Below, one piece after another: positions 128 to 26,660 of a stretch of 64,000 bases of DNA. The position numbers and the translations under genes are program-made. A model generated the notes under the pieces. That model saw only the letters and a list, made by a program, of their open reading frames with translations. It made no database searches and was not told the origin of the DNA. The DNA is taken from positions 58,716,909 to 58,780,908 of the forward strand of contig CM034547.1 of assembly GCA_020055645.1 (NCBI GenBank), in the 5' to 3' direction. The number at the start of each line of letters is the position of its first letter. Positions within the stretch are counted from its first letter, which is position 1. Source of the stretch: Tomocerus qinae (lineage: Eukaryota; Arthropoda; Collembola; Entomobryomorpha; Tomoceridae).

Positions 128-3100
128 CGGTTGTAAATCTCCTCATATATATGTTTTGATGGCAAGGACACTTCTAGATATCTTAAATTTATGTCCACTT
201 TATATATAGTGTTCCTCGAAGCAGAATCCATGAATTCGTTCATTTCATTTCTATCACCAGGGATGACACTTTCTCCAAACCCTTGACAATAAAACAACAT
301 TCATTCATAAATACAAACACATTGGAGAGTGCATTCCTTTAGAAATATGTTCACAATCTATCTATATCTTCTTATTACCAGTGACAAAATTGATTAAAAG
401 CCACTAATCATACCATCACAGTTATAATTCTAAACATTGTACTTCAGTTGATTTAAAGTTTAGATTTTAACTCCGAAGTATTAACAACATAATCTGAAAA
501 TGCAATACAGCCTATCTTTGCCCTAGGTTCATAATGGTACCTATTTGTAAATAATCTAAGGAAATACTTTTACAATTATACGCTGACAATATTCAATTAA
601 CTGTCGCCTGTTACCGTCAGAATTATTTTCCTTTTCTTGAGAACTTAGGCACTGGTGAATAACCCTTCTGGAACTGAAAGGGGAGGGCTCTTTTTGCTTA
701 TTAGATAAATAGTTATCCATTGATTCGTTTTCATCTTCGTGTTCATGGTCAATCACAGCATCGACAGGCTTTGTTGGGTAGATACTTATTACAACTCTGA
801 AACCAACCCAAATAGACAGTGTGTGAATCAAAACAGTATGCACGACAAAATGTACAGAAAGTTTAACCAGTCAATATATACGGTGTGGAAACCAAGCACA
901 CTAATTCTAGAATACAGGCACTACACTTTTACTGTTTTTCCATTAAATGCAGTTATTTAAAGACATCAGAGTAATATCAGAAAACTGTACAGTCAATGAT
1001 AATATATGTGTGTGGATGTAGGTGTTACAGGGAGATTGAAAAGAAACACATGCAAAATGCCTAGGCTACATGTAAAGAACAAAATTTTGACTTTTAACCT
1101 AACCTAATTTAAATCAATTAAACTTCCATAAAAGTACATTGACAATCGGCAAGTTGTTTTAAATTAGGTTAGGTGCGTTAAAAAAATCTTAATTTTGGTT
1201 TTTCACTTTACATATAGCCTAGGCATTTTGCATACTATGTATGTCCGGTCTGTACAATTTCCTGTAACATAGGTACATATGAAGCATTTTCAATGTATAT
1301 ATTGACTATAACAAATGTTTTTTTTCAAATTATTTACTGTTACTTAGTTTTTAAAATTACCTTGGCCAGTCAAATCCTTGACATTGTAGCGATGTGGCAT
1401 CTATCTCAGGATCATCTGCCAAGGCTTTCGCAATAATTACTGTATCACTCAATTGAGTCTCCTAAAGACAGCAATGTTTTAAATTATAAACTATGTAAAA
1501 AATAATGTAACGCGTTAAAAAATAACTTGCCTTATAAAACAGTTGCACTTCATTACATTTGGTATCCAGTTCAATGATGCTAGAATTTGAGTTTAAAACA
1601 GTTTCAAATTTTAGATCCCTCAGTTGAAATACCACAGAATCACTTCTTATGTTTCGACTTCGAGATGAGGGTCGTTGCGGGTCATCATATGACCTTAGAT
1701 CAGGAATTGGAAACCTATACCACAGGTTCAGTAAAATTACAGTCCTCATAGTAGCCGTAGTATAACAATGCAAAAAACATTAATTATAACATTAGATTTT
1801 AGAAAGCAAAGTTATTTCAAGTTACCTGAAGTTCATTTCAGCGTTTGGCGATTGTAATTTTATTTTCACTACGGAGCTATCTTTACTATTGGTGTTGGTT
1901 TCGTCCTACAAAACAAAAAAATATCATTTGCCAAACTGCACGAATACCTCATTTTCTTTGTAAATGGCATGATCGTCTCTGATTTACCTGATATTTCAAC
2001 TGGTCTGCTTTAGACTCGGTATAGAAAGGCAATTGGGGATGTAAAAGCGAGTAAATTCTGTCGATTAATGAGATATCCACTTCGGATTTAAATGGTTGTA
2101 AATTGAAAATTAGTTTTGTTTTACTTATCGAAGCTCGGGATTTATAGCTTTTGTGATTAAATTCTATTCTTGCAGAATTGCACGGTCCAGAGTCAAAGTT
2201 TGGGAAATTTAGTATCTGCCAAAACACCAGCAATTCATTACATACAGTTTATACCATCTTAACTTAACATTAAAATATCATGTCTTCAAAGTCAACGAAC
2301 TTACTTCTACAATTTCTTGATCAGATTTCGCATAAGAGCTATTGGATGACTTAACTGCTTCCACAAGCTCACAGTACCCTAAGCTTACATGACCAGTTGT
2401 GATTGAATTCGCTGAGACTATGTTTATTGAGCCTTCCACTTTTAATGGGGCAGATATAAATCTGAAAACGTGTATAGATCCAAAAAATATTATGACGTAC
2501 CAACAGTGGACTATTACCATAAGGAAACGAAAAATTAGATTTGAAAAATGAATCTCGAAAACTATACCTACCTTAAATTACTGCGAGAACATGCACTCCT
2601 CAATTGGGTTCTAACTTTATCGATATCCTTTTTTCCAGAAACAGTAGCCCCAAACAGCCCAAGCTGTTGAAAGAAATCCCGAGAGTATTTCTTCATATTC
2701 TTCACACTAGCTGATTCTACGCCGTAGACGGGAGAAAGAATTAATACATCTTCATGCAGCAACACCACTGCAACACTAGCGAAACTAAGGCAAAATTTTG
2801 TTTTCTCAATACAGTTTTGATTTTGTTGTGGCTTCTGTGTACTGTAATATTTCGAAGATAGCGTAGTTGAGCATGTGCTTTCTGACATAGACTGTTGAAG
2901 AGACGAAGAGATGGAAGTCATGGAAGCATTCATGAAAGTCGAATTGACACTACTATACATTTCAGCTTTCGATTTGAAAGGTAGAAATTCTTCGTCACTA
3001 TCATCTTTAAAAAAACAATAACAACAAGAAGGTAAGAAATAAATATGGTATTTATCTTGTCTGGTGCTAACTCCATATGCAAATTTCATTTACCAGGCCT

Positions 3101-4981
3101 TTCACCAAGTATTTAAATTTCTGCAAAGACATCAAAACATTTGAGAATATACTTTATAAAATACCTAAACATGGTGATGACCAGCCTTGGGGCTGCTGAA
3201 GTCCTGGTAGCCCAATTCTTCCGGGATTGAGTTTGTCTTGTAATTCCTCTTCAACTTTTTTATAATCAAACGAATCCATTGGCTTTTCTTTGCAATACCT
3301 TCTTCCCGGAAAATCCCCACTTTAAAAACAACAACCACAATATTATATTAAAACTACAATTTTTTAAAAACTAATCATTACGTTATTTCCATAACTAATA
3401 ATATTATGCTTGACAAACCTATCAGCATTTAGATCTGGATTCAAGATTTCGTCAATTAGTCTATAAACAGTGTGCATTTGAATTGGAGTCATTAGGGTTA
3501 TGAGAGAACCAAAAGCGCAATCTAATATTAGCTGAGGTCCGCCAATTGAATCATCATTTTTTATTTGAATTTTTATTTCATGACGCCCTGAGAATTTCCC
3601 CAGCAATACAGCATTATCTTCTTCGGTTTCTTCTTTACTTGATAAATCTACATCGTCCTCCTAAAAAGCCAACGAAATCATGGGTTTATCAAAATAACTT
3701 CATATAGTAATCCCAAAACCCTTTTTTATCGATTTGGAATAAAAAAGAAAACTATTGTGTTTAGAAACATTACTGGTAATTAAAACTTCAAATTTAAACT
3801 TTGAAATAAATGTATCACCTCGGGGTTACAGTCTTTGAAGTAACGGCGATTTAAATTAAATTGATCGTGTTTAAATATATCGCTGTAGCAAGATACCCCC
3901 TCTAATGTAACTTTTTTGTGTGAAAACGCTGTTTCGTATGAACGAATTTCTTCTCTGGAATCAGAAGACGCTTCATCGGTGAATTTTAGTCTAAATTCAA
4001 TGGGATATAACACAATGAATACAATCAATTCTTAATCAGTTGCGAAAATCAAAAAGAAAGTACCGTTCCTTACAATTTTATTTTGAAATCGACAGCAATC
4101 CCAACATCGCTTCCTGTTTGGCTTCTTTCCACTCGAATTATAGAATCCCTTAGTATCATTTTGACACGAGATATCACTACGAAATAATTACATGATTTTT
4201 TTTTTAAAAATTGAGTAACAGATGAAACAAGAAAATGATTTAAGTTTGAGACAATCTTACTTGCGTCAATCGTTTGGGCACATCTTTCTAGTCCTGTTAA
4301 GCGTTGACTTGATTCTGGAGTTTGATTGATACACAATTCAGGTTCGTCATCCGAGTCTCCAATCTTTAAACATTCTTCAGCAAGCTGCATACTTGAGGCC
4401 ATACTAGCCCACATTGAGTCCAGCATAGAGCTTCCTTCATTGCGTAAAATTCACATTCATGTAAAATTAATGTACCTTTCTGTATAATGTCTAGTATACT
4501 GCAGTATACAACGTTAAACAACATCATTAAAAGTGCCAAATTTACCATTATCCAATCTCTTTTTCGGCTGCACAGTAATTTGCAACCCGCTTATTTCTAT
4601 TTCACAACTATCGTTCATGATAGATGACCATGGTATTGACACAGATATATTGTCCAAATGTCCCTCAATAAATTCAATAGGAATGTTCTGCTGCTCCGCC
4701 AAAACATTTAATGCCTAAATAAACATCATTACATTACTACACAATGACCCCTTCTTAATAGAATGATAGAATAGATTCATAGCTGATAGAATAGAAACAG
4801 AAACTAAATTCGCACAAACCTCGCAGTCCAATTCCACATTTGTCACATTCCCCGTTCCATTGTATAGATCAACGGTAAGTTGATCTAATGTCAGTTTTTC
4901 CTGAAGATACTGGCCAAGGTACCTTTGCAGCAAGTACCTGCTCACCCGTTTCTTTAAATTGTCTGTCCACGCTGCGAACAT
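128..4981 (-). CDS. ATG2: Autophagy-related protein 2 (ATG2), N-terminal part, runs off left edge
   Basis: ATG2 is a rod-shaped lipid-transfer protein that bridges the ER and the growing phagophore and works with WIPI/ATG18 and ATG9. Fifteen exons are readable on the minus strand: 4820-4981, 4546-4714, 4261-4434, 4075-4176, 3819-3990, 3419-3660, about 3166-3321, 2572-3004, about 2312-2463, about 1989-2213, about 1823-1905, about 1535-1713, about 1361-1461, about 570-798 and 128-281, giving roughly 900 residues, under half of a typical ATG2. The first exon holds the chorein-type start (SRYLLQRYLGQYLQEKL, LDQLTVDLYNG). The second holds EFIEGHLDNISVSIPWSSI and SGLQITVQPKKR, both diagnostic of ATG2. 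The exon at 128-281 ends in LPSKHIYEEIYNR, a pattern I recognise from mid-protein ATG2. The intron after the 1535-1713 exon has a GC donor (AAG|GCAAGT). I see no frameshift. The exon at 570-798 is the least certain. Confidence 0.93.
1049..1240. repeat. Imperfect inverted-repeat MITE in an ATG2 intron
   Basis: Two arms of roughly 80 bp face each other inside the ATG2 intron 799-1360. The left arm carries GCAAAATGCCTAGGCTACAT and a downstream AACCTAACCTAATTTAA. The right arm carries the reverse complements TTAAATTAGGTTAGG and TAGCCTAGGCATTTTGC. No coding capacity was seen. This is a typical non-autonomous terminal-inverted-repeat element; its family is not identified. Confidence 0.55.
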
Positions 4982-5526
4982 TTTTGGCTATTTTAAACGC
5001 TTACAGCGTTGGTAATGCCTTTGTTGCACTGGTATTATCTTATCTTCATTTCAATAACCTGGAGGAAGGATGAAGTTATTCAGATCTCAAAAATCTCAGA
5101 AGACCTATAAATCACAAACATTATATGAAAATGACTGCAGTTAAATAATAAATATTTATAAATCTTTAATTCATATCATTTTGTGCTTCCAAATTAACAT
5201 GATCTCAATTTAGACTGGACTCTTGGCTAGATATTTTAATTTTAATCACCAACTTGTTAAAACAACAAAAAGAGAAGCCAGCAGCACAGAGATTTTGTAC
5301 TTTTTACGCATTTCCCCGTCTGTAATTACATCAATTGTAAAAATGATAATCTATTTGATTAAATTTCGAATAAATTACTTTACTGCAGAATTATGGCTGC
5401 GAATTGCGAATACCACCAAATAAAACTGTTAAAATTATGAAAAATAAATTGTTATGATTAATGTTGGAAATCAACAGCTGATTGCAAACAGCTGAGATGG
5501 AATTCTGATATTTAATATTTGCAAAG

Positions 5527-5591
5527 GTATGCACCCCAACGCATACCTTCATGTGCTAAATTTAGTACATGGAGGTATGCGTTGGGGTACA
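5527..5591. repeat. Compact nested hairpin about 550 bp upstream of the ATG2 start
   Basis: Arms of about 26 bp at 5531-5556 and 5566-5591 are nearly reverse complementary around a short AT loop. Within the left half there is a second inverted pair, GGTATGC...GCATACC. The whole can form a long hairpin or smaller cruciform arms. It lies between the ATG2 start codon (minus strand) and the Harbinger element. It may be a tiny foldback remnant, and no promoter function is shown. Confidence 0.6.
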
Positions 5592-6238
5592 TTATTGAAA
5601 ACATTAATTTGCACACACGCACTTTTTACGCACTTTGCAATTTCTATAACTCAACTGCAAAATCTCTTGAGGCTTTGCAGTTGAGAACCGAATGCAAACC
5701 GAAACCGATACAAAGTGAAAATTAGTATTCACTCACATTAAATTTTCGTGGCCAGTAGCGCTTCCAGAATATATCCCATTGGGCCCAGTTCCTGCAAAAC
5801 GCAAAGTGCAAAATAACAGTAGCCTTTCACGCATATAACTCGCTTCCTACAGCAAGCTTCTTGCTTTTTCCATCGTGCGTTTTCTCCGCTAACTGTCGCT
5901 GTGTGATCCCACTTAAAAAACTGCGTGATTGCATAAAATTTAAGTTTGCGCCAGAAAGAAGCAGCAGAAAGCTAGATAGTAGCTGCACACTGCGTCTACG
6001 AATAGGTGGGATCACCCAACGCGGCAAGCTGCTACCGAAATTATTGTGTCGACACAGCTGTTCTAGTTTTTGATCATTCCATCCATTGCCGTCCAACTCA
6101 ATATAGTTCTCCGGCTTTAAAGAGCCATTAAATATTAAGTAATTCTGATTTTAATTACAATAGACGCGCACATCGGCCGCTTTTTGTAGGTAAACAGCAA
6201 GCTGGTCATCGGTAGAGTATTCTGAGGAGGGTAATAAA

Positions 6239-7425
6239 ATGGGTAAGTAAATAATTATTTGAGTCGACTCAATCAGCTATGATACCGAATCATTATATCC
6301 CTAATTAATATTTACAGCATCGAGTCAATGTGGAAACTGTGGAAGTCAAGACGGCCATTTCCGATCCAATTGCCCAAAACCTAAAAATTATTCATTGGAA
6401 CATTGGCACGCAGCAAAGAAACAATTCCGACGGGAGCATCCGGACGAAGTGAGAAAATTACGTGAAAGAAAAGAAGAAAACAGAAAGTGGCAAGAGGAGG
6501 GAAAGACTATACCCGTAAGAAAATCTATTTACATACAAAATAATCATAAATATATATATATATATATATAATAAAAAAGTATATTAAGTTCTGCTGTGTC
6601 GACACAAAGATATACAAATTGAATTATATATTTATTATTTCAGTTCTCCTTATTGAATGCAGCTACATGCAACATGTTGCAAACCTTGTACGATCTTTCA
6701 CAAGATTTGGACATTTTGGGTCGTCCCATAGAGTGGGAGGCAGTCAACAACGAACTGGACTCGCTTTTGCCTCTAATCCGAGAAATTGTTAACAATGGGA
6801 AAGGGGTATATATTTCAACAAGGTGATTATTATTGAATTTAGCAATAATGGTTGTTCAAAATGTTTTTTTGTTGTTCATGCAGTTTTTGTTTCAAAATCG
6901 CATCAAGGATATAGTTGATGGAGACATTTTTGTCTCCAGACTTAATGATCTGCAGGAAAGCAGAGACGAACTTGTGCAGCAAGTAAAGTCTTTCGTCAAT
7001 GGAAAACTGGGCAATTTGGCGCGTATGCATGCAAGGTAATTTTGCAGTTATGTGGGTCGACCCTTAACGTTGGTATAATTAAAGTCTAATGATGTTATTG
7101 TCCTTGTAAATATAGGAGAGATCCCGTAAGCTTCCTTCGCTATGTTTACGAGAACTACCCCCAAAATGCAAATTCACATTCGATGCTGAGCAGCTCAATG
7201 GGTCGTCCCTAAAAAAATATTTATTGAAATCTTTGTTGCACTATCATCCTGACAAACAAGCCAATTGCCAAGCAGACTGGAAGTGCATATGTGAGACATT
7301 ACTATATGCATATAATATATTATGGTCAAATTAATTAATAATTCATTTAACAAATATTGCTTTTTTGATTTGTAGGCGAAGCAATCACAAGGTGCCTTAC
7401 GGATGCATTTTCTCGATTTCAATAG
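6239..7425 (+). CDS. Transposon-encoded zinc-knuckle plus J-domain (HPD) protein, intact
   Basis: Six exons (6239-6242, 6318-6514, 6644-6805, 6884-7035, 7121-7290, 7376-7425) join in frame to about 244 residues with no break. Exon 1 is only ATG plus one base. The N-terminus has a CX2CX5HX4C zinc-knuckle-like motif (CGNCGSQDGHFRSNC, about residues 6-20), then a charged Lys/Arg/Glu stretch and helical middle. The C-terminus resembles a J-domain: LLKSLLHYHPDKQ with the HPD tripeptide, then WKCICEAITRCLTDAF. HPD is the Hsp70-contacting motif of DnaJ proteins. Exon 5 needs the acceptor at 7119-7120. Palindromes sit in introns 1, 2 and 4, in exons 3 and 5, and one overlaps the TAG stop. No Hsp70 or nucleic-acid binding is demonstrated; zinc and J-domain roles are inference from motifs. 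Confidence 0.72.
6550..6571. repeat. (TA)n microsatellite
   Basis: About eleven TA units lie inside the second intron of the J-domain gene. It is a simple repeat of no evident role. Confidence 0.8.
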
Positions 7426-7787
7426 GGTCGACCCTCTTTAGCTCGCCTGAGGAAGCGTTTACTGATATCCGATAAAATTGATTAATTTGTGTTTAATATA
7501 TTTATCATTAGTAAATGTATATGAAGTATAATTTCTATGCAAAATAAACTACAAGCCTATAAATGGACATGGATCTGATATTTGCCTTGTTTATCATATA
7601 CATAATATTATCATTAATAGTATCATCAGATAAAACCTAGATGAAATATTTTATACTATCCGCCACAAATTTATAGCAAAAATCATTTTACTTTTTTGCC
7701 TATACCAGATGAAAAGAAAAGCAAATAGAGTCTCTGCAACCTTTTGACCGGGATTGAAGTTAATAATCACAAGATAACTGGTTCAAT

Positions 7788-9260
7788 ATGGTAATGTATT
7801 TTTTGTTGAACAAGTATTTTTGAAACATAATTGACATTACAGAGTAGGTCGACCTAATAATAATTATTACGTAGTTACAGGTTAGTGATAAAAAGAGAAA
7901 AATTTTAAAGTTGCTTTTGCTGAAACGCTCAACTACGAAAAACATAAAGCGCAAATACTGGGTCCATCCAATTTTCCAAAATCGAAGTGTTGATGGCGAA
8001 CACATCAAGCTGGACGAAATGCTTAAAAAGTACCTGGACCGCTTAGCAGCTTATACCCGGATGTCACCAAACACATTTATGAAGCTGCTGTCTCTAGTAG
8101 GGTCGTCCCTAATGAAGAAAAGATTCTAACTGGAGAAAAGCTGTACCGGTTCGAATTAGGCTTTACGTTATTTTGAGGTAATTCATTTCTAAGTTCATTT
8201 GTTCATTTTAAAATTATTGTATACGAATTTCTATTATTTGTAGGTATCTGGCAACCGGTGACAGCTTCAGGTCTATTTCAACCAGCTTTAGCTTGGGCTA
8301 CACAACCGTTTGGGAAATTGTTCACGAAGGCCTTCCAGTCATTTGGAAAAAGCTAAAGGATCTCTACGTGAAAGTAATAATCAAATAAAAATAAGGTCGA
8401 CCTTATAATAATTTTGAATGTTTATTTTAGTTCCCTTCGACAGAGGAATGGGGGAAAATCGTGGATGGATTCTACGATAAGTGGAACTTCCCTAATTGTC
8501 TTGGGTCTATCGATGGTAAACATGTAGTAATGGAAGCTCCCCCCAATTCCGGATCACTGTATTTTAACTACAAAGGAACTTTTAGTATTGTTCTGCTTGC
8601 CACGTGTGATGCGGACTACAACTTTACATCAATAGACGTAGGAGGTTACGGCAAACAAAGTGACGGAGGAATTTTCTCAGGGTCGACCCTAGGACAGAGA
8701 TTAGCTGCAGGAACTTTAAATACTTGCGGACCCCGATATCTTCCTTTAACCACAACGTCTATGCCATGTTGTTTTATCGGTGATGAAGCGTTTCCTTTAT
8801 CTACAAGGTTGATGCGTCCTTACCTCTGGGAGGGGGTTAAATACTCCGAAGCGAGTATTTAATTATCGTCTTTCCAGAGCAAGACGATGCATTGAAAATG
8901 CTTTTGGCATTCTAGCATCACGTTGGCGAATCTTTCGGAGACCGATCGCCGCAGAGCCAAAGCAAGTTGAAAACATTGTCTTAGGTAAGCTATACAATTT
9001 GAGTCGACTCTCGAATTTTGGAAGGGAATGTAATCTTACTTTATCTTATAGCTTGTGTTGCGTTACACAATTTCCTGAAGAAGGAAGAAATGAAGCATGG
9101 ACCTGCTGAACGGTTTTACAATCCTGTTGGGTACGGAGACGACTCCATGGAAGCAAATGGTGAATGGAGAAATGAACACCCTCCTTCTGGACTTATTGAT
9201 GCTAGGCCTATATCGGTTGCAGCGCAGGAAAGGGCTTCCAAGAAAATGAGGAGGATTTGA
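7788..9260 (+). pseudogene. HARBI1-type PIF/Harbinger DDE transposase with two single-base frameshifts
   Basis: Exons 7788-7790 (ATG only), 7881-8177, 8244-8373, 8431-8984 and 9052-9260 give about 396 residues once two extra bases are allowed for. The protein catalyses excision and integration of the element. The N-terminal RKYWVHPI block, the YLATGDSFRSIS helix-turn-helix-like region and the RNase H-fold core are clear. The catalytic acidic residues are all present: Asp in GSIDGKHVV, Asp in KQSDGGIF and Glu in CIENAFGIL; ACVALHNFL follows as usual. One extra A lies in the AAAA run near 8117-8120, and one extra base lies near 8824 (between RPY and the Gly-Arg-Gly loop); each breaks the frame. 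Sequence error in runs is possible but recent decay is equally likely. Palindromes lie in introns 1, 3 and 4 and in exons. Confidence 0.9.
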
Positions 9261-9495
9261 TGAATTATTTTATGGATGTGGGTGCAGTGGATTGGCAACT
9301 GTCTAAAATAAATGCTTAGTATAGCGATGAAAGCATTTGTGTACAGAAATCATTTAATCTATACTGAGTGTAAAATAAATTGTAAATAACACAAATTGCA
9401 ACAAAGACGTAAATTTATGTATATTCCTTTATACTATTTATTAGATTGTAATTCTTTACACCATATTTTCATACATCTAGTACAGCTTTAAGGAA

Positions 9496-10750
9496 TTATG
9501 GATTATTTTGAGTCGACTCATTGGAGAGAGGTTGTTTTTCCCAAGTACCCATTGGGTACATTATTTCGTATAACAAGGATGAAATTCTCACCATTGCATA
9601 CGAAGCAGTTTGTAAGGGTACGTTTCTCAAGCTGTTACAAATTGTCATACCGAAATGGTAAAACTGGTCTTTTACCTCTTCTGGTTCTTCAAGCACCTTC
9701 AGTATCTTTTCATTTAGTACTGCTTCGTTGGCATCAGCTTTTCTTTTTACAACCTAATCATCCAATAAACAGATATTAGTAAAACAAATGCTAGTTTCAA
9801 TGAATTTATAAATGTTAATTGCTGATTAGTTTGCTTACTTTCCTAGTTGATTTAGGAGTCGACTCTATTCTTGCTCAAGTCTTCCTGTAAACGACATTTA
9901 AATATTATGATTAAATTATCTGCTATTGTAGCCATAATTATTGTTTGTATAATATATATGCAATTGGGTGATATTCGTACATGGTAACTTGCTCCATCGA
10001 CAACCCCATTTCCGGAATTTCCATCAGATGAATTCTCGGGAACTGAGGATTGATTGTCGTCAACAATGGAGTCGTCTCCCGGAAAGTTTGATTGAGTGCT
10101 GGAACAAAAATTTAAATACATAGGGTTAAATCCATCATTATAATAATTTCGCAAATATTACTTCCTCTCACTTTTCATTTTCCTCATTACAGGAGGACAA
10201 CACCCTGTCCATGGCGCTATAGTAGGGCCATGGCTTTTTTTGTTAGCTCCGTCTCCACTTTTACCCTTTAGAATCTTCTTTACTCTATAATAGTAATCTC
10301 GTAACGTCTTCCACTTCTTTCTGCAATAGTCTCCTGTGTCGACACAATATTTTAGTATTGGATACAAATAGTATTTTATAATTAAGTATATTACGTATAT
10401 TGTAATAATATATTTTACGCTTACCATTCACTTCCTTTTTTGCAAACTTGAGTCCAGTAGCGACATCATTCCAGGCGTCACTGATCACATCCCGTTTACT
10501 ATGTCTCGGATCACGACAGTCGTAAATAAAAGGACGACTCTCAACCTTTCGGATTAATTCGAAAACTGAATTGTCTCCTTCCTCTTCGTTTCCAAAATCC
10601 TGGACGACCTGGCTTTCAAACTGACTGTCGTTGTCCTCAATTTCGTGTGTCTAGCGATATACAAAAGAAAAAGATGTATATTCTGGTCATTTAGAAATTA
10701 TAGTTGTTAATAAAACAGTTAATAATTTGTGTCGACACAATTCTCACCAT
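9496..10750 (-). CDS. Transposon-encoded MADF-BESS DNA-binding protein, intact
   Basis: Five exons on the minus strand (10748-10750 ATG only, 10425-10650, 10162-10333, 9981-10098, 9496-9753) join in frame to 258 residues. The MADF (Myb/SANT-like) domain begins at VFELIRKVESRPFIYD, continues through SDAWNDVATGLKF and ends with CRKKWKTLRDYYYRVKK. After a low-complexity acidic/Ser/Asn linker, the C-terminus has a BESS-type interaction motif (FHFGMTICNSLRNVPL region followed by YAMVRISSLLYEIMY). In Harbinger transposons the Myb-like partner binds element DNA and brings the transposase to it; MADF-BESS proteins also self-associate through BESS. It is therefore the leading candidate reader of the palindrome array. 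One palindrome forms the 3' splice acceptor region of exon 3 and another encodes NESTQ just before the stop. Confidence 0.85.
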
Positions 10751-11075
10751 TCTGATCCTCCTGGAAAATTCAAAAAAGAACGGACGATATGTAGTTGATA
10801 TGTTGATAATCATAAAAAAGCGACATACAAGCAGTTTCAGCTTCGTCGGGACAAGCTTCTTGTTTTTTGTCGGCGCGTAAAAACTTTTTGCCGCTTCAGC
10901 AGAAACAGTCGCAGTAGAATCACTCACGCGTTTTTACGCGTTTCTGCAAAAAACAGCGGCAGTAAAAGAAAAAAAGCTGCAGCACAAAAATATGCTGCCG
11001 CAGCTAACTGCCTGTGCTATACAATCACTTTTTCTGCCTGACGCTTTCATCTTTCATCGCGATGGAGCCCAGTGC

Positions 11076-14059
11076 GATAACCCCAAGTATGGTAAGTCGC
11101 AGTAAGTAATTCGCAGTTTGTGGCTATTATAGTTATAGTCTCCAATTCCTTCCTATTATATTATGATATTATTATAAACTCAAAACTCGTGTGTTTCATA
11201 GTGAAGTTTAGTTTAGTATCGAATCGAGTAGTAAAAGCTACAAATTGCAATGTAATGTAATGCGTAATCAACTCGAGTTGTACTGTACAGTGAACTGCTA
11301 TATTAGATAGGTTGATTATACTGCTATATTAGATAGGTTATCATCTGAGCAAACCAAGGTAAAACTAAAAACACATTACTGAAACCAAAACTGCTTGACA
11401 TTCAATTATTGAGCACTTTAACGTAAAAATAAATTAAAGGATCACCTTTGACTGATTTATATAGTGTATATAATTAACGACGTAACTCCGATTAACTTTT
11501 ACACTTGTCTGCTAACTTGAATTGAAACTGTTGAAGCAATGGTTTTATTTACCAGTACTACTAATACAACTGGTACAAGTATAAAGTATAACCTTTATAA
11601 ATATCAATGCCATTGCCTATTTCATTCCACACACACATGCTTGTCATGTAAAGGAAGTATCGAATAGTACAATACAGAATACAGGCACAGTAAGTAGAGT
11701 TATTATAATACTCAGCAATGCTCCAATCCAATATATACAATACTGAACCTGTACACTGCTCGGACAGCTGAAGAACAAAATAAATACAAATACATGCATT
11801 CGCACAATAATAATATTACAACTTACCTAAACTCGAGAGATTTGGAATCGAAAACCCGAGTCGAACTTATCGAAAGTCTTTGTTTCATATGTACTCTTCA
11901 TCCAATCCAACTCCATTGAAAATGAACTCATTCAACTTCAATGACTTCAAGACTCAACTCTCAAATATTCAACTATTCAGATTCACGGTTTCATAGGTTT
12001 CATGTACTTTTTAGCTGCTTCAAACAAGATATTTTTAAACGGATATGACACAAAAGACACAGATGAAACTCAGATGAAATGAAACTTATTTCCAAAAGAG
12101 AAAGGAAGTTTCAGCACTTTTATCCAAGCATCTCATCAGCCCAGCAGTTGTTGATAAAAGAAAATAAATAAAATGCATAAGAACCATAATATACAAATAC
12201 AAATACTGACTGATGCGACAATATTATTATTTAATATTGAATATAACCATAATATTAAGTGGACGAAGTGATCTGACTTCCAACAACTCACAATTTCCGC
12301 ATTTAGGTGATACAAGTATGATAAATCCGTAAAAAGAATGTTTTAACGGTTTTATAGTATAATGTCATAATAATATAAAAAATACAAGAAAAACGGAAGA
12401 CGTGTTGCATTTGCATGTTCGATTTCCGAATACTAATGAGATTGCATTTCAGAGCCCAGAAGTCAGCAGTTCCTGTAAAAATGAGAAAAATTAAATTAAA
12501 TATCTTACTTAACCCTAATAGACAAATCTTCCCGATTTGATTCGAAGATTCGGAAAGTTTTGTCTAACTGTTGTCTAACATACTAACATCCAGCAGTCTG
12601 ACAAAGGCATCTTGCTGACAATGCTGACAATACTGAACGTATTGGTTTACTTACATATCGGTAAGATTAAGAATAAAGGTAACGGGGTTCGCTCGCAAGT
12701 TAATAAAAAAAGTCACTAACAGGGCTTAAAATTTTTATTGCATATTTTTTCGTTTCTGACGATTTGGGGGTGGTCATTTTTTTGAGTACCCGCCCACATT
12801 ATAGAAGAGATAGAAGTAGAAGACAAAAATTTGTGAAATGTTCAAAAAATAGACATAGGAAGGTTCAATATGTCTAGTTCTGGGGGGCATCCAGAGCAAG
12901 ACTTTGGCTTCCCGAATTTAAAAGTTAGCCAATTTTTGACTTCCACTTAAATCCACAATCTCTCGAAAGCCGACTTACAAGTCCGAACTTTAAAAAGTTA
13001 GCATTGGAAAATCGTAGTTGACTTGTGGATTGACAGCGGAAGTTGGTCTTGACTGCCTTTGTTATCCACATTCGAACTTCTGGGACCTTAGACTGGCTTT
13101 TCTAAGCCAACTTAATCATACTCCTCAAGACGGTGACTTCCGTAGAAATTAGCCAACATAATAGCAAAAATAATTGACCAAGAGTTATGATAATGCGATA
13201 AATTGTTAAATAAAGCAGTGGCAATAATCGGTGCGGTGGTGACCTTGATACATTTAGAAATCAATGCATGCAATGATCGTGATACACTTGATTCGAATAG
13301 GATTCGAAGAATTTTTTTAAAATTTACTTTATGGCCGTAGAACGTATGGTCTCAGATCCTTAGATAGGGAATTAACAAAAAAAGTTACTGGCAAATATGA
13401 TAGTCGAGAAATCATTTTCGTTTACATGCACCTGGGCTTTAAGAATAAGGTATTCCTGGAAACGACCAATTACTCTGACTATCATATTCCATGTAAATTT
13501 TTTTTAGAAAATTCGGATCTAGTCTGGGGCTTCTAAACCTACAAAAAAAGTGTAAATATACAAAGAAGGTTCATCGAAAGTTGAACTACAATCTTATTGT
13601 GGAAAATTTGACATTCAATCTTGGATCTACCTTGGATATTAAGATATCTTCAATTGAATTGCAACGTAACGCCCCCCCCCCCGAAATCGAAGAAAAGAAG
13701 GGAATTTTTGCCTTAAAACCAAAAATGAATATAGTATATATTTTCAATTATTATTTGTCGAGCCCCCTCCGAAATTTTTCCCTGGCTGCGGCCCTGCTGT
13801 ATTGAAATATGCATTAGTGAATACTATGCATTTATTGTATGACTACAGATGAAATCAGTTAGTTAAATTGGTTTCGTTGCAGTCACGTTGGTTCAATCAG
13901 GTGGATAATTGCTGTTATAAATAAGTAGACCACAAAGAAGTACCAAAAATAAGGTCGTACTTGAATTCGAATTTTCGGAAATAGTTTCATTGCAGACGTT
14001 CGTTCAAAATAAGAAAAGAGGTACCAAGAAGGATAAGAAAAATGTAAGGTAGTACTATA
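11076..14059. other. Intergenic stretch with no recognised gene
   Basis: I see no spliced coding pattern, tRNA or transposase here. It holds a short tandem duplication of ctgctatattagataggtt near 11298-11340, a 12-bp palindrome CAACTCGAGTTG at 11269-11280, an isolated GGTCTCAGATCCTTAG end motif near 13349 shared with elements at 24.6 and 26.6-26.9 kb, and a run of about 12 C near 13672. A 74-codon reading frame at 13581-13805 has no family likeness and spans the C run, so it is not called a gene. Confidence 0.6.
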
Positions 14060-24573: not shown

Positions 24574-26660
24574 GTCTCAGATCCTTAGGGATTTTCGTAA
24601 AAAAAGTTACGAATACAAGAAGTCTTGATTACGAATTTCGCATAAAATACCGACTCACATTTACCCTCTTTGACAATTTTTGCTAGTTTGTGGCTGTGAC
24701 AGGTAAAGGGTTTCAAAGAATATTATTATCTTGACCTTAAGGACGCTGTTTACGTTGGTTGCTAACGAAAAAAATATAATTTCCAAAATTTAACCCGTCA
24801 ATTGTCACATCCGAAACCCCATAGTTAACCTACCCGGCCATTCCACTACCTCAAGGGGAAGTTTTGGCAGTGCAATATTGATAAACAAGATGCTATCAAG
24901 TCAATAACAAAATGAATTCCATGCGGCATAAACGGCCGTCTTATGGTATAATATTTGTAAATCTATTGGTTAGTACTTTGGTTAGTACTATATCACTATG
25001 ACTACGGTGTCAATGCTTGTACTTGATGGCCGTTTATGTCACATGGACAATAGACATCTTTGATAGTAGTTATAACAACCATGGTTATAACTTAAACTTA
25101 CAAGTATGAATGCATTGAAGCAAGATGCAAACAAAAAAGATTTTGTACTAAAGTATTTGTAATAACATTGCCAATGACGACAGGTGGAAATGCTACTATA
25201 CAAGTCAGTATAGAAATCTTTATAATATAATACACTTCCCCGTTTCCTAGAAACTAATTTTTTGGAATTGCATTGACTTATGCCCTCGGTATTCCATCAT
25301 CAGCAATTCGGGTCAACCTCCATGCATTTAAAATTCATCATAATATCTTTACATCGACTGTTATAACTTCCGGAGGATCAGTCTGATTTTTATGGGACCT
25401 ACATTTTTGGAACCGTGGACTATCAAGGAACAAAAGTTACCATTCGGAATTTTGATATAGTTGTTTTAAATGCATTTAAAAAAATCAAATTCCCAAAAAA
25501 ATGAGTCATTTTTAGTTTTTTATAAAACGTTGATGTTTTTGGTCCATTTAAAGCAACTATATCAAAATTCCGAATGGTAACTTTTGTTCCTTGATAGTCC
25601 ACGGTTCCAAAAATGTAGGTTCCATAAAAATCAGACTGATCCTCCGGAAGTTATAATAGTCGATGTAAAAGATTTTTTAACATGCATTTTGATAGTCCCC
25701 TGTGGTTGCTATGCAGGGCCAAAGTGTAACCTTAACAAGTATTTTCATAGTTCCCCGACTATTCAAGGCTGAATTGATGTGGGTATTATTGGGGGCAAAT
25801 GCACCCCGGAAATCAAAGAAAAGGAAATATTTTTCTCAAAATACCAACCAATTTTGCTCTTCGCGCGATTTTAAGTGATTTTTAAAGCAATTTTTGCCTC
25901 ATTTTCGACACAAACAGCCTAAATTTTTGCAAATATGTCTTATTTAACATCCTTGCCCCCTTCGTAGTTCTTCTAAATACGGTACATGGGGTGTGCAATG
26001 CATTATCCTATCCTATACTTACTTTTAATTTATATATGTCATATACATGTAGTGCTGCAAATGACGTCACAAATATTTTTACCTTTACTTTTGAGATTTT
26101 CTAAGTGGATTTGCAAGGAAGGTAAAATTTTAGATTATCAAGGTGATGTGACATAAGTTAATTTTATGGTCGAAAAAGAAAAAACCGATTTTTTTTGCAA
26201 CCATAATGTAACTGCTAAAATCAGATTCTGTTCGTTAGAAGACATTAAAACATAAACTTTCATGAATTTATTGACACTTTTCATGCGTGTCGACTCGAGA
26301 CATTTACTTTTCCAATAATCATTTTTCCTAAAATTATGACTAACATAGATTAAGAACAAGAACGAATAAACAAATTATTAAAATACATATCATAGCAACT
26401 TAGCAACACATACGATTGATGATTGAGGGCAAGGAAAATATAATATACAATATACTGAAAAGGAATGGCATCGGCATATAAAATCAGTCTATTGGGGTTT
26501 TTAAGGACAGGGTATATTTTTTGAAACCCTTTACTTGTCTCAGCCACAAGTGGGGATGTTGCTAGGCAACTAGCAAGAATTCTCATAGAGGGTAAATGCA
26601 ATTCCGATTTTATGCGAAATTCGTACTTTTTTTAGGAGAATCCCTAAGGATCTGAGACCA
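24574..26660. mobile_element. About 2.1 kb element with GGTCTCAGATCC termini, no genes
   Basis: GGTCTCAGATCCTTAGGGATT at the left and its inverse at the right (ending near 26660) are followed inward by matched segments: AAAAAAAGT, ACGAATTTCGCATAAAAT and ATTTACCCTCT. Inside are smaller inverted repeats, including one at about 24912-25046 and a long hairpin at about 25340-25690 with arms over 100 bp. No transposase was found, so it is non-autonomous. Confidence 0.65.

Follow-up and report, generated by a model that had tools for sequence, protein, structure and literature searches.

The 64,000-nucleotide stretch of the Tomocerus qinae genome analysed here (the window; contig CM034547.1, positions 58,716,909 to 58,780,908) contains a DNA transposon that is tiled with palindromes sharing the core GTCGAC. 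Its assignment to PIF/Harbinger is supported by a DDE_Tnp_4 transposase (Pfam match at 8.7e-14), a second gene encoding a MADF domain (7.2e-6), both above cut-off, and 3-bp target duplications. PIF/Harbinger target duplications are 3 bp long and usually TWA; TTA or TAA duplications flank several other copies of the element, and AGT lies on both flanks of the window copy (5818-5820 and 11086-11088). A preliminary description of the window had named the element a Harbinger transposon, and this identity holds; the span it gave, 6045..10740, falls short of the real element (Table 1). The two ends, AGCCTTTCACGC and TGGGGTTATCGC, are weakly alike by eye. One genome assembly (334 Mb, 115 contigs) supplied all of the sequence evidence. 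Searching it with the element returned nine matches that span the whole query, window copy included, and four copies in two pieces; 11 of these 13 copies, the window copy and 10 others, were aligned and are referred to as family 1. No relatives of the element were found in a single scan of viral contigs.

Three genes were drawn by eye from the open reading frames (ORFs), with the transposase start codon inferred. One of the two indels in the transposase gene of the window copy has no counterpart in any of the 10 other aligned copies, and the second is absent from nine of them; the palindromic sites of the window copy are whole. Gene 1 comprises a zinc-knuckle-like start (6305-6571) and a J-domain-like segment (7116-7334), and is an extra gene of family 1, not seen in the two related families described below. 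It would be an unusual cargo for a Harbinger element, with Pfam matches that are both below curated cut-offs (DnaJ, E 0.0098; zf-CCHC_2, E 0.1). The frame of its exon 5 is interrupted in the window copy, where a run of C varies in length among copies.

Table 1. Features of the family 1 element and its palindromic sites (window coordinates; exons and introns by eye)
Feature	Position	Strand	Location or remark
PIF/Harbinger element, family 1	5821..11085	+	full length 5265 bp; ends same across copies compared
Gene 1, zinc-knuckle-like N-terminus and J-domain-like HPDK segment	6239..7425	+	6 exons
Gene 2, DDE_Tnp_4 transposase	7788..9260	+	two 1-nt indels in window copy
Gene 3, MADF protein	9496..10750	-	MADF by Pfam; BESS-like C-terminus by eye
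Site TGTGTCGACACA	6045..6056		upstream of gene 1; TGAGTCGACTCA in L009, L010, L013-L015; right arm lost in L011, L012
Site TTGAGTCGACTCAA	6259..6272		intron
Site TGTGTCGACACA	6595..6606		intron
Centre variant TGGGTCGTCCCA	6717..6728		exon (L-G-R-P)
Site GGGTCGACCC	7054..7063		intron
Centre variant GGGTCGTCCC	7200..7209		exon (G-S-S-L)
Site AGGGTCGACCCT	7424..7435		overlaps gene 1 stop codon
Site TAGGTCGACCTA	7845..7856		first transposase-gene intron
Centre variant TAGGGTCGTCCCTA	8098..8111		exon (V-G-S-S-L)
Site ATAAGGTCGACCTTAT	8391..8406		intron
Site AGGGTCGACCCT	8679..8690		exon (S-G-S-T-L-G); families 2, 3: R-S-A-L-G
Site GAGTCGACTC	9001..9010		intron; centre TCGT or CCGT in seven relatives
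Centre variant GGAGACGACTCC	9135..9146		exon (G-D-D-S)
Site TGAGTCGACTCA	9509..9520		exon (E-S-T, minus strand)
Site GAGTCGACTC	9856..9865		small exon or intron of gene 3
Centre variant GGAGTCGTCTCC	10068..10079		exon (G-D-D-S, minus strand); missing in 5/7 relatives
Site TGTGTCGACACA	10335..10346		intron splitting MADF domain
Near-site CCTGGACGACCTGG	10599..10612		CCTGGTCGACCTGG in seven aligned relatives
Site TTGTGTCGACACAA	10727..10740		first intron of gene 3; imperfect in seven relatives

Each of the 13 GTCGAC words that the element contains forms a perfect palindrome, of 10 bp (three sites), 12 bp (seven), 14 bp (two) or 16 bp (one). The four GTCGAC words elsewhere in the window (15711, 26289, 28030 and 37925) form no such palindromes. 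Both observations had been made in the preliminary description, in which the coordinates of the words at 26289 and 28030 were off by one. The five centre variants that it counted were also found (GTCGTC or GACGAC centres), and the steps of 122-421 bp hold for the resulting 18 sites. Because symmetric arms were a condition of their selection, the symmetry of these variants carries no independent weight. A sixth variant, the near-site at 10599, also has a T.T mismatch in its arms. As previously described, the array crosses three genes, both strands, exons and introns; according to our gene models it also crosses one stop codon.

The excess of palindromes withstands shuffling, which the preliminary description had named as a test: when palindromes of at least 10 bp with at least four G/C were counted by common 6-bp core, the element gave 13, and none of its 200 dinucleotide shuffles gave more than 2. 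The word TGTGTCGACACA occurs 103 times in the genome, against 22 occurrences of its reversed control, and among the matches listed (all on contig 1) 45 of 50 lie inside or within 700 bp of family 1 genome matches. The sites are also present in the 10 other aligned copies, which are nearly identical to the window copy, as had been expected, with 12-15 same-core palindromes at each locus (neighbours included).

We then compared the window copy with seven relatives (L009-L015, three of them internally deleted). For L009, L011 and L014, which are 26-28% diverged from it, the ten central bases of the 19 sites were scored separately from all other element positions. Against L009, 9/188 site positions differ (4.8%) versus 1278/4828 elsewhere (26.5%); the corresponding figures are 9/188 (4.8%) and 1311/4663 (28.1%) for L011, and 9/128 (7.0%) and 866/3151 (27.5%) for L014. 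The comparison of L009 with L011 gives 13/186 (7.0%) and 1240/4572 (27.1%). Exonic sites likewise diverge far less than other coding positions (6/101 and 7/104 versus 550/2573 and 567/2578, with approximate exon limits). The exonic site at 8679 has cost amino-acid changes, reading SGSTLG where families 2 and 3 read RSALG. The insertion of a small palindromic element at this position is ruled out, as families 2 and 3 read through without gaps, differing by substitutions only (by eye). All five centre variants of the window copy fall in exons of our by-eye models, which is what one would predict if the sites were a compromise with the coding sequence. In six gene-less copies, conservation is suggestive, with two sites invariant (0/24 variable columns versus 81/731, P 0.06).

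The sites are more evenly spaced than random in family 1 and in the two other families that carry arrays. The coefficient of variation of the spacing in family 1 is 0.34 over all 19 sites and 0.25 when only the 13 perfect sites are counted; it is 0.16 for family 2 and 0.17 for family 3, and the probability that random placement is at least as even is <0.0001, 0.0041 and 0.0003, respectively, assuming uniform placement between the first and last site without modelling exons. The first core lies 228 bp from the left end in family 1, 241 bp in family 2 and, from coordinates, about 250 bp in family 3.

The arms differ from site to site and match within each site. At arm position 4, the left bases of the 13 perfect family 1 sites are, in order of position, T A T G G G G G A A A T T, yet all 13 are matched on the right, where 4.4 would be expected; shuffling the right arms among sites reached 13 matches in 3 of 200,000 trials. 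Including the centre variants and the near-site, which are selected sites, the count is 19/19. For sites chosen as palindromes, the observed total of matches was reached in 100 of 100,000 shuffles in family 3 and in 1,599 of 100,000 for the five sites of family 2. Across 91 cells in six relatives, 83 pairs at position 4 are unchanged, four show two-sided changes and four are broken. The two-sided changes, T-A to A-T at 6045 in L009, L013, L014 and L015 (also in L010), represent one event. The broken pairs are at 6045 in L011 and L012, at 9509 in L013 and at 8393 in L009, the last being a row that is misaligned by a 2-base insertion and is to be ignored in the pair count. Positions 5 and 6 show more one-sided changes than position 4. 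This coupling of the arms may be a feature that is new in kind.

Two further, more diverged Harbinger families in the same genome carry arrays built on other cores. Family 2 (L016-L019, L033) has five tiled palindromes with the core GGCGCC, and family 3 (L029, L034, L035) has seven tiled, GCGC-centred palindromes of 14-16 bp with the core WGCGCW. In all three families, same-core palindromes are far above shuffles. In the L017 element, GGCGCC has symmetric arms in 5/5 cases; in L034, GCGC has them in 7/11, and no more than one arm pair borders the core in the remaining four. Four of the five family 2 sites are perfect in L018, four sites lie in the part of a family 3 element held by the L035 stretch, and L040, a relative of family 2 (82-91%), has one site. 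Between L017 and L033, 0/60 site positions changed, compared with 186/3300 in the rest. The preliminary description, which had reported the tiling of one element, mentioned neither this family-specific switch of core nor the matching of arms within sites.

A transposase and a MADF-BESS protein were seen in all three array families; for families 2 and 3, Pfam scans covered 9 ORFs out of the 59 that L034 and L017 have between them in the ORF lists. In Pfam, MADF was matched in families 2 and 3 as in family 1, and BESS was matched at 2.2e-9 in a family 3 relative and fell 0.8 bits under the cut-off in family 2. A structure search with the MADF segment of family 2 found no solved relative, returning only a 60S protein (E 0.36). 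By eye, four slots are common to the three families, with the core differing at each: the last transposase intron, the intron splitting MADF, a place at the transposase gene's start or upstream of it, and the region before the BESS exon. This sharing fits a possible common descent with concerted change of the core. Arrays as a general Harbinger trait are ruled out by a fourth family (L036-L038; about 70% identical to family 2 in alignable DNA) and by the more distant loci L030, L031, L032 and L039, which have no array above chance. At L030 and L031, where element limits were not determined, a repeated 8-mer lies in two groups flanking the transposase, the layout expected for classical subterminal sites. 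The earlier statement that tiling of a whole element is unusual thus gains some support, and the available part of PMC9710019 likewise places a Harbinger Myb-like motif subterminally.

Three further observations concern these loci. The family 2 copy at L017 (about 1848-5271) lies within a tandem repeat array; the other units represent the unoccupied site and give a 3-bp overlap, in line with a 3-bp target duplication. Near the right end of family 2 elements, at L017 5022-5041 and at matching places in L016, L018 and L019, is a perfect palindrome of 20 bp, AAGTTGAAATATTTCAACTT, which is unlike the array sites. Adjoining the family 3 element at L029 285-1168 is a high-copy repeat that contains an inverted structure and recurs at dozens of genomic places.

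Given these features, we propose, with about even confidence, that the palindromes are family-specific dyad sites for a dimeric protein encoded by the element, most likely its MADF-BESS partner, which would coat the element. We infer the binder, the coat and its purpose from the observations above. Each transposon family would have its own set of dyad-symmetric sites in double-stranded DNA, bound by a dimer of the element's protein. With steps of 120-770 bp, starting about 230-250 bp in from the left end and stopping a few hundred bp short of the right end, such sites would let the protein coat the element but little host DNA. The coat could counter host silencing by keeping the element's chromatin open and could recruit the transposase, and the outermost sites would double as subterminal transposition sites. 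Anti-silencing and transposase loading are the likely uses of such an array, and the MADF protein is a plausible binder; the preliminary description had suggested coating, looping, escape from silencing or the loading of a partner protein as possible roles. One core per element and a different core per family (GTCGAC, GGCGCC and WGCGCW) are as expected if a single trans-acting partner sets the core. According to the literature, MADF or Myb-like proteins partner PIF transposases (PMC9710019), that of zebrafish Harbinger3_DR, a Myb-like protein, recognises a subterminal motif of 9 bp (as cited in PMC9710019), BESS directs homodimerisation (PMC10573801), and a Harbinger-derived MADF protein recruits an acetyltransferase (PMC11893794).

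Several observations weigh against this proposal. The matched, variable arms are not explained by ordinary dimer binding: a dimer that accepts T, A or G at position 4 should also accept unmatched arms, yet all 13 sites match. Pfam backs MADF but not BESS in family 1, no BESS match being found for the window ORF of gene 3. The sites are mostly kept in the relatives, largely as had been expected, but the site at 10068 is missing in five of seven, that at 10727..10740 is imperfect in all seven, and that at 6045 has lost its right arm in two (L011 and L012). The intronic site at 9001 has a variant centre in all seven, so coding is not the sole cause of variants and the argument from coding compromise is weakened. 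Among the 11 young copies, variation at the sites is not clearly lower than elsewhere (2/228 versus 66/5037), and a third site in the gene-less copies is changed in four of six, in what is a weak test. Family 4 is without an array above chance, and its MADF half-domain is close to that of family 2 by eye. The slots shared among families may come from even spacing alone.

The sites could instead serve the transposase itself, or two or three element proteins with their own arm preferences (the T, A and G classes), for transposition or for avoiding self-insertion rather than for expression. The clustering of arm classes along the element and the persistence of two sites in gene-less copies would suit this explanation, which we nevertheless consider unlikely: family 3 has several arm types and yet two genes were seen, and transposition requires the ends and not exonic sites 2 kb inside.

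A rather less probable explanation is that self-complementarity itself is selected, the sites forming hairpins or pairing with one another as single strands (RNA of either strand, single-stranded DNA or a cruciform), with a protein reading the TCGA or GCGC loop. It accounts for the arms better than dimer binding does, given the matching within sites in families 1 and 3 and the one compensated change at 6045. Arms are also kept in the centre variants, and the 7054 site in L011 and L012 reads AGGG-TCA-CCCT, with the centre deleted and the arms intact. However, the compensated change is a single event, one-sided breaks also occur at position 4, and the centre variants were picked for their arms. 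RNA hairpins would be weak (0.0 to -6.5 kcal/mol for isolated hairpins; family 1 mean -2.5 kcal/mol, with two sites at 0.0), a one-strand RNA hairpin needs no palindromic loop, and no known structured RNA was matched in Rfam at the gathering threshold. In addition, the family 3 site at L034 3411-3426 lies, by eye, beyond the AATAAA of the transposase gene and ahead of the 3' end of the MADF gene; being apparently between transcripts, it favours DNA over RNA as what is read. A hairpin in sense-strand RNA is made unlikely by the weak energies, the palindromic loops and this apparently intergenic site. In a bolder form, which we regard as quite improbable, it is base-pair symmetry and not fixed bases that would be conserved, giving a tiled self-complementary code with a family-specific centre and free but matched arms, read through pairing by the element's own proteins to tell self from host.

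We find it similarly improbable that the sites serve a host DNA-binding protein captured by the element for expression, insulation or sparing from silencing. The sequence evidence identifies no binder, and insect architectural proteins can be dimeric; on the other hand, a host factor would favour one core, whereas three families in one genome have three, and few occurrences of the family 1 word lie outside these elements. Chance, composition or low complexity, to which we give practically no credence, is ruled out by the shuffle controls, the conservation in diverged relatives and the two further families, as is an origin by local duplication, there being no long repeats among site flanks.

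Motif arrays of self-recognising DNA transposons are already known, and the present array is a variation on them. In the En/Spm (CACTA) element, subterminal 12-bp TnpA sites are repeated, element-specific and bound by an element protein. They are clustered at the ends, unlike the present palindromes, which tile over genes. The array also resembles those of the VANDAL elements of Arabidopsis, Mutator-like transposons in which, according to the available parts of the reports, a short motif differing between families is repeated within the element, and VANC proteins bind these family-specific arrays and remove silencing (PMC5735166; PMC10398659). As described there, VANDAL motifs sit in introns, intergenic and terminal noncoding DNA and change with the element-encoded VANC (PMC5735166; PMC10398659); they form dense, same-orientation arrays that are poor in exons, and the word palindrome is unused in the available text of the VANC paper (PMC5735166). 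The present sites are instead single, evenly spaced, palindromic and partly exonic, have matched variable arms, and belong to another superfamily. Three families with three cores do have a family-specific motif array inside the element; their transposase is of the Harbinger DDE_Tnp_4 type and not Mutator-like, and no VANC gene appeared in Pfam scans of chosen ORFs, where alone it was sought. By analogy, the array may thus work like the VANC/VANDAL system without being a member of it. The Harbinger3_DR element shares the superfamily, a transposase with a Myb/MADF partner and an element-specific DNA word, but its 9-bp motif is subterminal in the available account, whereas the present words run through the element body (PMC9710019). 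In the literature searched, which stopped short of Repbase reports and most subscription papers, we found no such array recognised for PIF/Harbinger.

Should the array prove to be an anti-silencing coat, animals would have a counterpart of VANC, and one whose grammar is defined and evenly spaced. To our knowledge, the escape of animal DNA transposons from silencing is poorly understood. Three related families with three cores in one genome provide a natural experiment on whether binding follows the protein, and the coupled arms pose a sharp puzzle for models of dimer recognition.

Family 1 copies abut relatives of 71-76% identity in two places, near 1480 in L012 and near 6556-6590 in L009. The aligned ends are about 3 and 34 bp apart there, a closeness that may reflect preferential insertion at the ends of kin. 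Just outside the window element lies a 64-bp near-perfect inverted repeat (5529-5592), a further repeat or small element in its own right, whose 32-nucleotide arms are 91% complementary and meet without a spacer. Further upstream, exons on the minus strand at 4514-4987 may encode an ATG2-like autophagy protein.

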